Translations under genes and position numbers: made by a program
In this document: positions 17,354 to 22,422 of the stretch, piece by piece
Layout: each line of letters starts with the position of its first letter
How positions within the stretch are numbered: the stretch's first letter is position 1
Notes under the pieces: generated by a model
The model's input: the letters and a program-made list of their open reading frames with translations, nothing else
Told to the model about the DNA's origin: nothing
Database searches by the model: none
NCBI RefSeq assembly: GCF_000963925.1
Contig: NZ_BAMV01000017.1
Span: forward strand, 186,001 to 250,000
DNA length: 64,000 bases
Reading direction: 5' to 3'
Source: Acetobacter cibinongensis
GTDB lineage: Bacteria > Pseudomonadota > Alphaproteobacteria > Acetobacterales > Acetobacteraceae

Positions 17354-20065
17354 ATGACACAAAATTCGTCTTCTGGTGATTCTGGTTCGTCTTCCGGGCA
17401 GGATAAGCGTGTGCGTACACCGCGTTTCCGCCGCTGGCGTGGGCTGTTGGGTGGTGTTGCTGCTGTGGCACTTGTTGGAAGTGCCGGGGCCGGGCTGGTA
17501 GTCTGGCACCAATATGAAGGCATAGTTGCAGACCTACCCACCGTAGAAGGGTTACAGTCCTACCAACCGCCGGTGATGAGCCGCTTGTACGCAGCGGACG
17601 ACAAGGTGATTGCAGAACTGGCGGATGAACGCCGGGTTTTTGTGCCGTACAGCGCCATCCCGGACCGGGTAAAAAACGCCTTTATTGCCGCTGAAGACCA
17701 GAAATTCTGGACCCACAAGGGGGTGGACCCGCTGGCTATTATCCGTGCGGGCCTGACTGATCTGACGCGGGGCAAGGGGCGGAGGCCTATTGGGGCTTCC
17801 ACCATTACGCAGCAGGTCGCGCGTGTCATGCTGCTGGGCAGCAATGCTGTCTCCATGAAAAGAAAGGCCAAGGAAGCCTTTCTGGCCATGCGGATTGAGC
17901 AGGTACTGGCCAAAGAGAAGATTCTTGAGATCTATCTGAACGAAATTTACATGGGCAGCGGGGCTTACGGCATTGGGGCCGCCGCACAGACCTATTTTAA
18001 CAAGCCGCTCGATCAACTTGATGATGCCGAGGCTGCATTTCTGGGTGCCCTCCCCAAGTCTCCCACCAACTACAATCCTACCCGTTTTCCGGATGCGGCA
18101 CGGGGGCGGCGTAACTGGGTGCTGGAGCGTATGGCAGAAATTGGTGCCATTACGCATGATGCCGCCCGCGCTGCTGAAGCCGAGCCACTCATCCCGCGTG
18201 CCTTCGTGCGCCCCGGCCCAGCCCCTGGTTCCGAGTGGTTTGCAGAAGAAGTCCGCCGTCAGCTCATTGAAAAATATGGTCAGGACGTCACCATGCAGGG
18301 TGGGCTGGATGTTCATACCAGCCTGGACCCGGACCTTCAGTTGACCGTGCAGAACACGTTGCGGCAAGGCCTTCTGGCGTATGACCGTGTGCATGGCGGC
18401 TGGCGTGGAGCCATCAAGCATGTTGCTGGCGTTACGGCAGAAACGGCGCAGGACGGTTGGGTTGCAGCACTTCAGGCTGAGCTTGCTCCACCCGGCATGG
18501 TGGACCAGTGGCGTCTGGCTGTGGTGCTTGACCCCGCAAAGGGGCGTGTTGGCTGGCTTGAAGGCGCTATTGTGCGGCGTAATGGCGCAGCACAGGGCGG
18601 TGTGCCGCAGAGCGGACAGATTCTTGACCGCGACCTTGGGTGGGCGCGCCGGACTCATCCGCTCAAAGCAGGGGATCTGGTCATGATCCAGCCTCAGGCC
18701 AAAGCGGAAAGCGTTGCCCTGATGCAGATACCCCATGTGGAAGGGGCGGTTGTTACACTTAATGCCCATACAGGGCGTGTTCTGGCGCTTGTTGGCGGCT
18801 GGTCTTTCCAGATGTCACAGTTTGACCGTGCTACGCAGGCACTCCGTCAGCCGGGGTCTTCGTTCAAGCCGTTTGTGTATCTGGAGGCAATGGAGCAAGG
18901 CATTTCTCCTTCCCAGATGTTTGACGACTCGCCGGTTTCTTACGGGACGTGGCACCCTAATAACTATGAGAAAGACTTCTGGGGGCCGACCTCCCTGCAT
19001 GATGCGTTGCGGGAGTCCCGTAACCTTGTGACCATTCGTCTTGCGGCGCATATCGGCATCAAGACCGTGGCTGATCTGGCAACGCAGATTGGTCTGGTTG
19101 ACTCCATGCCTCATGTCCTGCCAGCGGCTCTGGGGGCTGTGGAAACAACTGTCATGAAGGAAGCGGCAGCTTATGCCACGCTGGCAGCCGGGGGGCGAAA
19201 GGTTACGCCTACCCTGATCGATGATGTACAGGACCGGCAGGGCAAGGTGATCTGGCGTCCGGACAGCGTTGCGTTGACCACAGCAGCTCAGGCTGAAGCC
19301 GCGGCGGCAGACGGTAAAAATACGGCATCCCAGCAAGACCAGCCGGATGCAGTCTTTCCCGGTGGGCAGCCTGAGGCACAGCCCGCAGCGTCTCCTAAGC
19401 CGGTAACGGCAGCCGCTCCGGTCTTGGGCATGGATGATCTGCCCTATCTTCAGGATAACCGGCCGCGCGTGGCATCAGAGCAGAGTGCCTTCCAGATTAC
19501 CGCCATGTTGCAGGACGTTATCCGCCACGGTACCGGTTTTTCTGCCGGGAAAGGTATTGATAGGCCAGTTGCCGGGAAAACCGGCACAAGCCAGAACTTC
19601 AATGACGCCTGGTTTGCGGGCTACTCCCCAGACCTTGTGACCGTTGTGTGGGTCGGGTTTGATACGCCACAGTCTCTGGGTAAAAATGAGACAGGTGGCG
19701 TGATTGCTGGCCCAATCTGGAACAAAGTGATGCGGACGGCTTTTGAAGGCCAACCCAAGCTCGACTTCCCTGTGCCGGAGGGCATTACCCTTGTGCGGTA
19801 TGATACCGGACGTGGTGTGGGGATTGATGGCTTTAAACCGGACCAGATTCCGGGTGTGAGCGTCAGTCTGGCTGACAATGGCGCATCGCAGGAGCTGACA
19901 GCCGCCGATACGGGTGCTGAAAACATGCCGGATTCGGAAAGTGACATGGCTGCGGGGGGCGGTGGTCAGCCCGGCAGTGGGGCAGGCAATGGCCAGCGAC
20001 CAGATGCACAAAGACCCGCCCAGCAGCCTTCCGGGGGTGACATTGGCATGGGTGGCCTTTATTGA
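17354..20065 (+). CDS. mrcA: Penicillin-binding protein 1A (transglycosylase/transpeptidase)
   Basis: This is a bifunctional class A PBP that polymerises and cross-links peptidoglycan. The 903-residue protein has a cytoplasmic basic tail, one membrane helix near residues 35-50 (VAAVALVGSAGAGLVVW) and a glycosyltransferase-51 domain. That domain carries AAEDQKFWTHKGVDP at about 112-126 and ASTITQQVARVMLL. The transpeptidase domain has SSFK (catalytic Ser about 502), SRN and KTGTSQN at about 741. The C-terminus is an extended Gly/Pro/Gln-rich tail. It lies 80 bp after hrcA and 52 bp before prfB on the same strand. Confidence 0.95.
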   Translation: MTQNSSSGDSGSSSGQDKRVRTPRFRRWRGLLGGVAAVALVGSAGAGLVVWHQYEGIVADLPTVEGLQSYQPPVMSRLYAADDKVIAELADERRVFVPYSAIPDRVKNAFIAAEDQKFWTHKGVDPLAIIRAGLTDLTRGKGRRPIGASTITQQVARVMLLGSNAVSMKRKAKEAFLAMRIEQVLAKEKILEIYLNEIYMGSGAYGIGAAAQTYFNKPLDQLDDAEAAFLGALPKSPTNYNPTRFPDAARGRRNWVLERMAEIGAITHDAARAAEAEPLIPRAFVRPGPAPGSEWFAEEVRRQLIEKYGQDVTMQGGLDVHTSLDPDLQLTVQNTLRQGLLAYDRVHGGWRGAIKHVAGVTAETAQDGWVAALQAELAPPGMVDQWRLAVVLDPAKGRVGWLEGAIVRRNGAAQGGVPQSGQILDRDLGWARRTHPLKAGDLVMIQPQAKAESVALMQIPHVEGAVVTLNAHTGRVLALVGGWSFQMSQFDRATQALRQPGSSFKPFVYLEAMEQGISPSQMFDDSPVSYGTWHPNNYEKDFWGPTSLHDALRESRNLVTIRLAAHIGIKTVADLATQIGLVDSMPHVLPAALGAVETTVMKEAAAYATLAAGGRKVTPTLIDDVQDRQGKVIWRPDSVALTTAAQAEAAAADGKNTASQQDQPDAVFPGGQPEAQPAASPKPVTAAAPVLGMDDLPYLQDNRPRVASEQSAFQITAMLQDVIRHGTGFSAGKGIDRPVAGKTGTSQNFNDAWFAGYSPDLVTVVWVGFDTPQSLGKNETGGVIAGPIWNKVMRTAFEGQPKLDFPVPEGITLVRYDTGRGVGIDGFKPDQIPGVSVSLADNGASQELTAADTGAENMPDSESDMAAGGGGQPGSGAGNGQRPDAQRPAQQPSGGDIGMGGLY

Positions 20066-20117: not shown

Positions 20118-21249
20118 ATGTCCGCCGAGACAGACGCCCTTAACGAACAGATCAAGCAGTCGGTCGCGCTGCTGAGGAGGCATCTTTAACTGGGATGTCG
20201 CTGAAGCCAGACTGGCAGAACTAAACAACCGGGCAGAAGACCCCGAGTTGTGGAACGACCCCGAAGCCGCCCAGAAAATGATGCGCGAGCGCACCCTGCT
20301 GGCAGGACAGATTGACGGCGTTCTGGCACTTGAGACAAGTGTGCAGGACACCTGCGACCTTGTGGAAATGGCCGAAGCCGAAGCTGACACTGAAATGGTG
20401 CAGGAGGGCGTGAAAACCCTTAAAGCTCTGGCCGAGGAAGCCAAACGCCGCGAAACGGAAAGCCTGCTTTCCGGGGAAGCGGACAGCAATGACTGTTACC
20501 TTGAAGTCAACGCCGGTGCAGGCGGTACAGAGGCTCAGGACTGGGCCCAGATGATGCTGCGCATGTACACGCGCTGGGCAGAAGCCCACGGGTACAAGGT
20601 TACACTGATGGAAAGCTCAGAAGGCGAGCAGGCCGGTCTGAAGTCTGCCACCATTCTGGTCAGTGGTCCCAATGCCTACGGGTGGCTGAAAACAGAAGCT
20701 GGTGTGCACCGGCTTGTGCGGATCTCCCCATTTGACTCCGCAGCACGCCGTCAGACCTCGTTTGCATCGGTCTGGGTTTATCCCGTGATTGATGATTCGA
20801 TTGAGATCGAGGTGAACGATTCGGATTTGAAAGTTGATACGTTCCGTGCGTCAGGCGCGGGTGGTCAGCATGTGAACAAAACCGATTCGGCCATCCGTAT
20901 CACCCATATCCCGACAGGGATTGTGGTGGCGTGCCAGACTGACCGCTCGCAGCATCGTAACCGTGCCACAGCCATGCAGATGCTGCGTGCCCGCTTGTAC
21001 GAGGCCGAGTTGCAGAAGCGTGAAGCGGCGGCAGCGGCAACGGAAGCAGCCAAAACCGATATTGGCTGGGGGCATCAGATCCGCTCTTACGTGCTGGCAC
21101 CCTATCAGATGGTCAAAGATCTGCGGACCAGCGTGGAAACCGGGAACCCGGATGCTGTGCTGGATGGTGACCTGGATGCCTTTATGGCAGCCGCTCTTGC
21201 GGCCCGTGTGGGCGCAACCCGCTCCGAGGCGAGTGCCAACGCACAGTAA
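20118..21249 (+). CDS. prfB: Peptide chain release factor 2, programmed +1 frameshift
   Basis: RF2 recognises UGA and UAA stop codons. The gene is read in two frames. The ATG at 20118 opens 23 codons ending at CTT (20184-20186), followed by in-frame TAA at 20187-20189. A +1 shift skipping T20187 continues with AAC TGG GAT and runs to 21249, giving about 376 residues. The RF2 landmarks are present: the SPF anticodon-like motif in [14 protein letters not shown] and the GGQ motif in [14 protein letters not shown] at about 248. The N-terminal region across the shift aligns with other RF2 proteins. A Shine-Dalgarno-like AGGAGG sits three bases before CTT, as in E. coli. The stop is UAA, not the usual UGA. 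Confidence 0.93.
20175..20190 (+). promoter_or_regulatory. prfB: Programmed +1 ribosomal frameshift site of prfB
   Basis: The site reads AGGAGGCATCTTTAAC: an internal Shine-Dalgarno-like hexamer, a three-base spacer, the CTT slippery codon, TAA and C. Layout and spacing equal the classical AGGGGGTATCTTTGAC. When RF2 is scarce the ribosome slips +1 and makes RF2. Confidence 0.88.
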
Positions 21250-21315: not shown

Positions 21316-21714
21316 TTTCGCTGATGTGAAGAAACTCTTTTACGATCCTGTGCGTTCGGCAGAATTTTTTTTCATTATCTTGCTGTCATAAAAAAGCGCA
21401 GTGGTTAGGAAACTGGTAAAGATTTCTTGATCAAATATGGCGTTTTTCTGCCAAAAAAGGCGAGGTGCCTGTTTTTTACGCTATTTGCTTTATACGAGGC
21501 AGGACGTATTTTACAAAAAGAACATTCTTGACATATGTGCTTCCAAATTGCCCAATTAGCGTCAGGAAGATGGCAGATATGCAGCTCTGTCAGTCTGCCC
21601 AGTGCTGAGGCACGAAATGTTGGGGTGTAGCCGCACACTCGACAAATTGGGCGAAGAGTGCGGAACACACACCAGCGTTTTATGGCTGGCGTGGAAGAAG
21701 GAGGATGTAGAAAT
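21316..21714 (+). promoter_or_regulatory. AT-rich spacer and structured leader upstream of tonB
   Basis: No gene was recognised here. A TTGACA occurs at 21528-21533, with no clear -10 at 17 bases. Downstream, CCGCAC-A-CTC at 21631-21640 can pair with GAGTGCGG at 21656-21663. AATTGGGC in the loop of that hairpin (21645-21652) is complementary to GCCCAATT at 21550-21557. The leader could therefore form alternative structures. It ends at an excellent AAGGAGG ribosome site at 21698-21704. Confidence 0.45.
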
Positions 21715-22422
21715 ATGAAGGACCACGCGCAACAGCAACGGAGACCGATGAATTATGTCATCGGGACAGGAGCTGTTGTCGGTGTTGTCGCTCTGCTGGT
21801 TGTTATTCTGCTGCACATTTTAGCAGTTGTCGGTCTGACACTTGGTATGGGAGCTTCTACGAGCGTTCCGGTGCCCAAGCCGCCTATCAAGACCAGGGTT
21901 CTGCCACCACCGCCACCACCGCCACCGCCGCCACCACCGCCGCCGCCACCGCCGACCATGGCAGTGCCGCCGCCGCCATATATTCCGCCGCCGAAGATTC
22001 AGCTGCCGCCGCCGCCAAACCCGCCGATCAAGCATGTTTCGCGGACGCCGCCTAAGCATCCTTCGCCGCCGCAGACAGTGACGTCACCGGCACCACCGGT
22101 TACGGAGCCTGCGTCCAAGGCTGCACCGTCTGACTCGCCGGATACAACGGCTGGTACGTCGCCGCTTAATAACGCCCGTCCGGTCTATCCACCGGATATG
22201 GAAGAAGAGAACATTGAAGGCCGCGTAACCGTAGCCTGTGACGTTGAGACAACCGGTATGACGAGCAACTGCTCCGTACAGGGCGTACAGGGTGGTCAAT
22301 CCTTCGCTCAGGCTGCTCTCGACTATGTTCACAAGGCACGCTACCGCCCAGCGACCAAAAACGGGGTTCCCGTTAAGGAGCTGCACAAGGTTTATGTGAT
22401 CAGGTTCAGACTGGACGACTGA
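21715..22422 (+). CDS. tonB: TonB-like energy transducer
   Basis: TonB couples the proton-motive force, harvested by ExbB/ExbD, to outer-membrane receptors. The ATG at 21715 is chosen for its AAGGAGG site ten bases upstream, giving 235 residues. A cytoplasmic basic segment is followed by one membrane helix (about residues 17-42, VIGTGAVVGVVALLVVILLH). A periplasm-spanning Pro-rich region then contains a run of about 17 consecutive Pro residues plus further PPPP blocks. The C-terminal domain (YPPDMEEENIEGRVTVACDVETTG ... ALDYVHKARYRPATKNGVPV, in parts) matches TonB C-terminal domains. The long proline run should depend on EF-P for translation. It is first in the tonB-exbB-exbD-exbD-TPR operon. 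Confidence 0.9.
   Translation: MKDHAQQQRRPMNYVIGTGAVVGVVALLVVILLHILAVVGLTLGMGASTSVPVPKPPIKTRVLPPPPPPPPPPPPPPPPPTMAVPPPPYIPPPKIQLPPPPNPPIKHVSRTPPKHPSPPQTVTSPAPPVTEPASKAAPSDSPDTTAGTSPLNNARPVYPPDMEEENIEGRVTVACDVETTGMTSNCSVQGVQGGQSFAQAALDYVHKARYRPATKNGVPVKELHKVYVIRFRLDD

Follow-up and report, generated by a model that had tools for sequence, protein, structure and literature searches.

The prfB gene analyzed here raises the question of whether the frameshift loop of release factor 2 (RF2) needs a stop codon that RF2 alone reads. The usual argument for this switch is that UGA makes the loop RF2-specific; in the present gene the stop at the switch is UAA, which is likewise read by RF2. The window, that is, the whole stretch of 64,000 nucleotides that was analyzed, sits within the 3.10-Mb genome of Acetobacter cibinongensis, and prfB spans positions 20118-21249 on its forward strand. 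The zero frame starts at ATG 20118-20120 and runs through 23 sense codons to CTT (20118-20186); codon 24 is the in-frame stop TAA (20187-20189), followed by a C in weak context (20190). Ahead of the stop lie a Shine-Dalgarno-like AGGAGG (20175-20180), the three-base spacer codon CAT (20181-20183) and the slippery CTT-T (20184-20187, with CTT at 20184-20186), so that each of these elements is found where the original prediction had placed it. A +1 slip at CTT-T would lead into AAC TGG GAT (NWDVAEARL...), and the +1 frame (20188-21249, stop TAA 21247-21249) adds 353 residues to the first 23. The resulting RF2 of 376 residues agrees with the expectation that a +1 shift restores the full protein. 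In a genome profile search, the +1 frame scores 518 bits against TIGR00020 (cut-off 370), the part from 20248 alone scores 500 bits, and the best solved-structure matches are RF2 entries, with 1gqe at the top. The predicted RF2 carries both SPF and GGQ. Upstream, 52 bases separate the ATG from the end of a gene for a PBP1A-family penicillin-binding protein (17354-20065, forward strand), which was identified from the open reading frames and a family search and serves as context only. An RF3 gene and a weak match to the prfB model (G000:C113:26300-26563) are also present in the same genome.

The cassette does not appear by accident. An exact search finds AGGNGGNNNCTTTRAC a single time in the window, whereas 100 shuffles give 0.01 on average, which rules out a chance occurrence; when two mismatches are allowed, six matches are found and 9.5 are expected, that is, no excess over chance. 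A start that bypasses the site is also unlikely, since the first start codon of the +1 frame past the site, TTG 20248, would give a truncated RF2. Read by eye, the +1 frame is closed by a TGA shortly before the site, with no ATG, GTG or TTG between the two. The gene thus belongs to the prfB +1 frameshift sites, as it is an RF2 gene with an early in-frame stop and has the Shine-Dalgarno-like sequence, the spacer, CUU-U and the C. The classic site is complete except for its stop, and here autoregulation through a codon read by RF2 only does not apply, because the stop is UAA and RF1 is encoded in the same genome (G000:C103:133873-134910). CTTTAA at this position corresponds to a published TAA variant of the motif. 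Downstream of prfB, an open reading frame with a long polyproline stretch that reads like TonB occupies 21658-22422 (forward strand). In 16 of 46 assemblies of the genus, a contig ends within 1.9 kb downstream of the frameshift site; this clustering suggests that the repeat in the polyproline frame probably breaks assemblies.

By comparing relatives, the distribution of the UAA stop may be outlined. The pattern GGNGGNNTCTTTRAYTGG matches in 46 of 49 Acetobacter genomes, 31 with TAA and 15 with TGA, and the 31 represent different species. Conservation of CTTTAAC among relatives, which the original prediction took as a sign of function, is therefore found, and CTTTGAC, which it thought might turn up in other strains, does not occur inside the clade; the 15 TGA genomes form a separate one. 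In the genus search, G030, G035 and G042 (91%, 68% and 96% complete) gave no prfB match at E <= 1e-90 and are uninformative on the stop codon; the missing genes are probably gaps, although G042 is rated 96% complete. G027, one of the 31, has a +1 frame that breaks downstream of the site, probably through an assembly fault; it was counted by pattern and left out of the 30-gene analyses below. All 26 Gluconobacter genomes (g54) match, 11 with TAA and 15 with TGA, and both sampled genomes of genus g30 have TAA. Of 397 genomes sampled across the family, 338 match the pattern with either TAA or TGA; the TAA version is present in 18 genomes from 3 of 102 genera. Neither version was matched in any sampled genome of g4, g17 and g95, which may be further losses or divergent cassettes. 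Within a class sample of 289 genomes, eight match the TAA pattern, and five of these are prfB (the window's own and four of the other seven). Among named genome contigs, at least 14 prfB TAA sites were identified by blastp among at least 115 matching stretches; two of the 14 listed, L049 and L148, have shortened frames, and the remaining 101 of the 115 listed are counted as chance matches. The titles of the prfB-positive records among the matches listed include Proteobacteria, Bacteroidota, Spirochaetes and others, and the site is also present in records named A. pasteurianus LMG 1262 and A. okinawensis DsW_060. In general, UAA at the prfB site is scattered, rare and concentrated in acetic acid bacteria.

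Synonymous codon use reveals how the cassette has been kept. Synonymous change is absent from 12 of 356 degenerate codons across the 30 UAA Acetobacter prfB genes. Among the 82 six-fold degenerate codons, only two are invariant; both, an AGG and the CTT, are in the cassette, which argues that it is kept as a signal. The longest run free of synonymous change is RHLNWD, at the site, and the longest such run in the 15 UGA Acetobacter genes, LLRRHLDWDV, coincides with it in position. The second AGG is present in 30/30 genes, the first in 29 (CGG in one), the spacer is CAT in 28 and TAT in two, and both CTT and TAAC are found in 30/30. G038 and G039 (L272 and L034), which belong to the Acetobacter UAA clade, keep GGAGGTATCTTTAAC although the preceding codons have changed; these are reduced genomes (1.5 and 1.7 Mb) with an odd base make-up and a long rpoB branch. 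On the other hand, G113 (L160, genus code g66), a relative with a 2-Mb genome, has lost the frameshift and encodes RF2 in one frame. Its site reads AGGCGCCATTTGGAC, which codes for the same residues in frame, and this implies that the cassette codons are dispensable for the protein. From these comparisons we conclude that the frameshift signal should still work in the UAA species. The constancy of TAA as opposed to TGA, however, is no proof of selection for UAA, since these 30 genes show no variation at 71% of first and 83% of second codon positions anyway; only two of their 40 Asp/Asn columns switch.

The number of stop codon changes was estimated from rpoB trees, which were built by a quick search with SH-aLRT support only. 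In the protein tree, which covers 73 genomes, all 29 UAA rows from Acetobacter fall into one clade (support 99), the 15 UGA Acetobacter rows are its sister (support 95), and a minimum of three changes is needed, one each for Acetobacter, Gluconobacter and g30. This tree lacks G030, G027, G021 and G042, and G035 has no rpoB. The DNA tree contains all 31 UAA Acetobacter rows, which stand together among the labelled groups (100), and needs four changes, with the low-GC3 UGA relatives G061 and G087 placed inside the UAA fork beside G038 and G039. It was flawed by two rows, G378 and G143, on the wrong strand, a fault corrected in the protein tree. The placement of G061 and G087 is attributed to long-branch attraction, because long branches were flagged there and the protein tree moves both out. 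The Gluconobacter UAA group has support of 78 (protein) and 99 (DNA), with 13 of 26 genomes in the trees. On this topology, a single change of the stop may have occurred at the base of one large Acetobacter clade and persisted thereafter; judging by the UGA state of the relatives, the direction would be from UGA to UAA.

As to the origin of the change, near-neutral drift is quite plausible, if just short of an even chance: UGA and UAA would be nearly equivalent at the site, and an AT-biased G-to-A change in lower-GC lineages would carry no regulatory meaning. The UAA groups indeed have lower rpoB GC3. In Acetobacter, the median is 0.61 (0.26-0.76) for UAA and 0.71 (0.57-0.83) for UGA, although these ranges overlap; in Gluconobacter, the medians are 0.56 and 0.71, and the two g30 genomes have 0.36 and 0.38. 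Furthermore, in the +1 frame the middle base of the stop is the first base of a codon, where change is infrequent anyway. Several low-GC3 relatives, however, retain UGA (G087 0.28, G061 0.43, G148 0.47 and G108 0.49), and UAA is rare overall, with five prfB sites in the 289 class genomes and 1.4% in the published motif survey, as given in passages of PMC12421855. Stop usage also fits drift, as it is much alike in the two Acetobacter clades. In rough counts of 95 open reading frames per clade from ten 20-kb stretches each, TGA accounts for 64% of stops among the UAA species and 70% among their UGA sisters (a cruder caller gives 57% and 63%), so that a collapse of UGA usage is rejected as a cause. 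By this rough count, genes of both clades end most often in UGA; the window departs from this, with TAA ending 24 of 35 open reading frames compared to approximately 30% in other stretches of the same clade. The high share in the window may be a local effect, and little weight is put on the stop-usage comparison for this reason. UAG is the rarest stop (about 6% by one rough caller and 14% by another), suggesting that the demand for RF1 is probably small. In any case, AT-biased drift concerns how the stop arose and not how it works, and it can be compatible with a loop dominated by RF2 as well as with one that does not distinguish the two factors.

The release factors themselves were compared in the same genomes. 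RF1 genes were found in 72 of the 73 genomes searched and a match to prfC (RF3) in all 73; the searches covered 38 of the 44 counted UAA genomes, all of which have both. Loss of RF3 is thereby rejected as a cause of UAA. In five groups (UAA and UGA Acetobacter, UAA and UGA Gluconobacter, and g30), RF2 retains SPF and has, four residues ahead of GGQ, an Ala that is presumably the equivalent of E. coli residue 246, and RF1 keeps P(A/S/T/M)TE and GGQ (70 of the 72 RF1 genes, without G113 and G117). At a threshold of 85%, 11 RF1 columns and seven RF2 columns differ in a nearly fixed manner between the two Acetobacter clades. The sole such column that also splits UAA from UGA Gluconobacter and sets off g30 is RF2 residue 24, which differs as a direct result of the stop change. 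RF1 column 278 (Ala versus Leu) separates the groups in Acetobacter and, apart from one exception, also in Gluconobacter; it was discarded because g30 has Leu in 2/2 and the other UGA relatives have Ala in 7/11. Parallel changes in RF1 or RF2 accompanying UAA were likewise rejected, as only residue 24 holds across groups.

Based on the sequence, conservation, clade distribution and RF1 and RF3 gene presence computed here, we favor, at a probability of roughly 0.6, ordinary RF2 frameshifting in a loop that is dominated by RF2, with some coupling to RF1 and a partial loss of RF2 specificity. By analogy with known RF2 biology, ribosomes would read 23 codons, AGGAGG would pair with 16S rRNA, and the ribosome would pause at UAA-C; two outcomes would then be open to it, termination or a slip from CUU to UUU that yields RF2. 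According to passages of PMC5009743, termination at a weak stop is slow, and this gives the Shine-Dalgarno-like pairing the chance to assist the tRNA in moving from CUU to UUU. UAA would be readable by RF1 as well as RF2, and as to which factor terminates there and how strong the feedback is, we infer only that RF2 would still do most of the termination and so still limit its own synthesis, while the loop would now also sense RF1 and have a lower gain. UAA is named as a stop read by RF2 in passages of PMC12421855, where Prince et al. suggest that RF2 may be its principal reader in most taxa. In E. coli ribosome profiling, according to passages of PMC5373646, the prfB signal is 736.7 compared to 82.8 for prfA with the K-12 RF2 (approximately nine times) and 526.2 compared to 87.1 with the Ala246 RF2 (six times), and both factors read UAA in the latter case. 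This excess suggests that RF2 may do much of the termination at UAA, which would keep the loop.

The main rival concerns a site that is indifferent to which factor acts, either as a fixed-rate attenuator that keeps RF2 low or as a sensor of total RF1 plus RF2 only. In B. subtilis, as reported in passages of PMC8073009, no ribosome queues form at UAA upon depletion of either RF1 or RF2, an rsbV variant given a UAA stop responds to neither knockdown, and RF1 is more abundant and UAG more often used than in E. coli. Were Acetobacter to behave likewise, the UAA site would not be a sensor of RF2 alone; the insensitivity to the loss of either factor also favors the concern, raised from the sequence at the outset, that RF1 competes at the site, and RF1 genes accompany UAA in all 38 genomes covered. 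However, three independent switches with the cassette fully retained are also expected of a working RF2 loop, and the E. coli excess of prfB over prfA shows that RF2 can be the main factor, and we regard an indifferent site as unlikely. The published data on UAA sensing, as given in these passages, point in different directions. A different regulatory logic, as the original prediction proposed, is possible. Its specific form, in which the switch of the Acetobacter clade and, independently, of part of Gluconobacter reports the summed capacity of RF1 and RF2 at UAA and not RF2, is a doubtful but tenable reading; if it were true, RF2 synthesis would be coupled to the RF1 level, and a textbook loop would have been stably rewired in nature by one base. 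A sequencing error, a strain mutation or a pseudogene, finally, is refuted by the sharing of TAA among 31 genomes of different Acetobacter species and by an RF2 that is otherwise full length, and has next to no probability.

A UAA cassette kept under selection in a 31-genome clade suggests either that an RF2-only stop is unneeded or that RF2 dominates termination at UAA. The UGA sister clade of 15 Acetobacter genomes has the same cassette, and the two form a matched natural experiment in which the need of the loop for an RF2-only stop becomes testable. The site was initially taken as unusual; it is real, conserved and under selection, but it is not new, as the UAA variant is already in print at 1.4%. 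According to passages of PMC12421855, the motif stop among 8,164 motif-bearing genomes is TGA in 98.6%, TAA in 1.4% and TAG in none, the TAA variant is spread over several phyla, and UAA has not become fixed in clades. The clade-wide fixation found here appears new and runs against that last statement, as worded in text passages and the Discussion of the paper. A literature search covering few subscription journals found nothing on Acetobacter with RF2 frameshifting, and the phrase 'acetic acid bacteria' is absent from the literature on RF2 frameshifting among the matches listed.

Compared to the E. coli-type UGA site, as described in passages of PMC13245932, PMC12421855 and PMC5009743, the present site has the same Shine-Dalgarno-like sequence, three-base spacer, CUU-U slip, C after the stop and +1 direction, and a similar position about 23-26 codons into prfB. 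It differs in its stop, UAA, which RF1 and RF2 read, and in the residue after the slip, which is Asn instead of Asp. Relative to the TAA motif variants in passages of Prince et al. (2025, mBio, PMC12421855), the variant has here reached fixation across a 31-genome Acetobacter clade and is also present in 11 of 26 Gluconobacter genomes. The frameshift-less prfB of the G113 type is the same gene in the same family, but it is read in frame with a decayed cassette, whereas the UAA prfB genes keep theirs intact.
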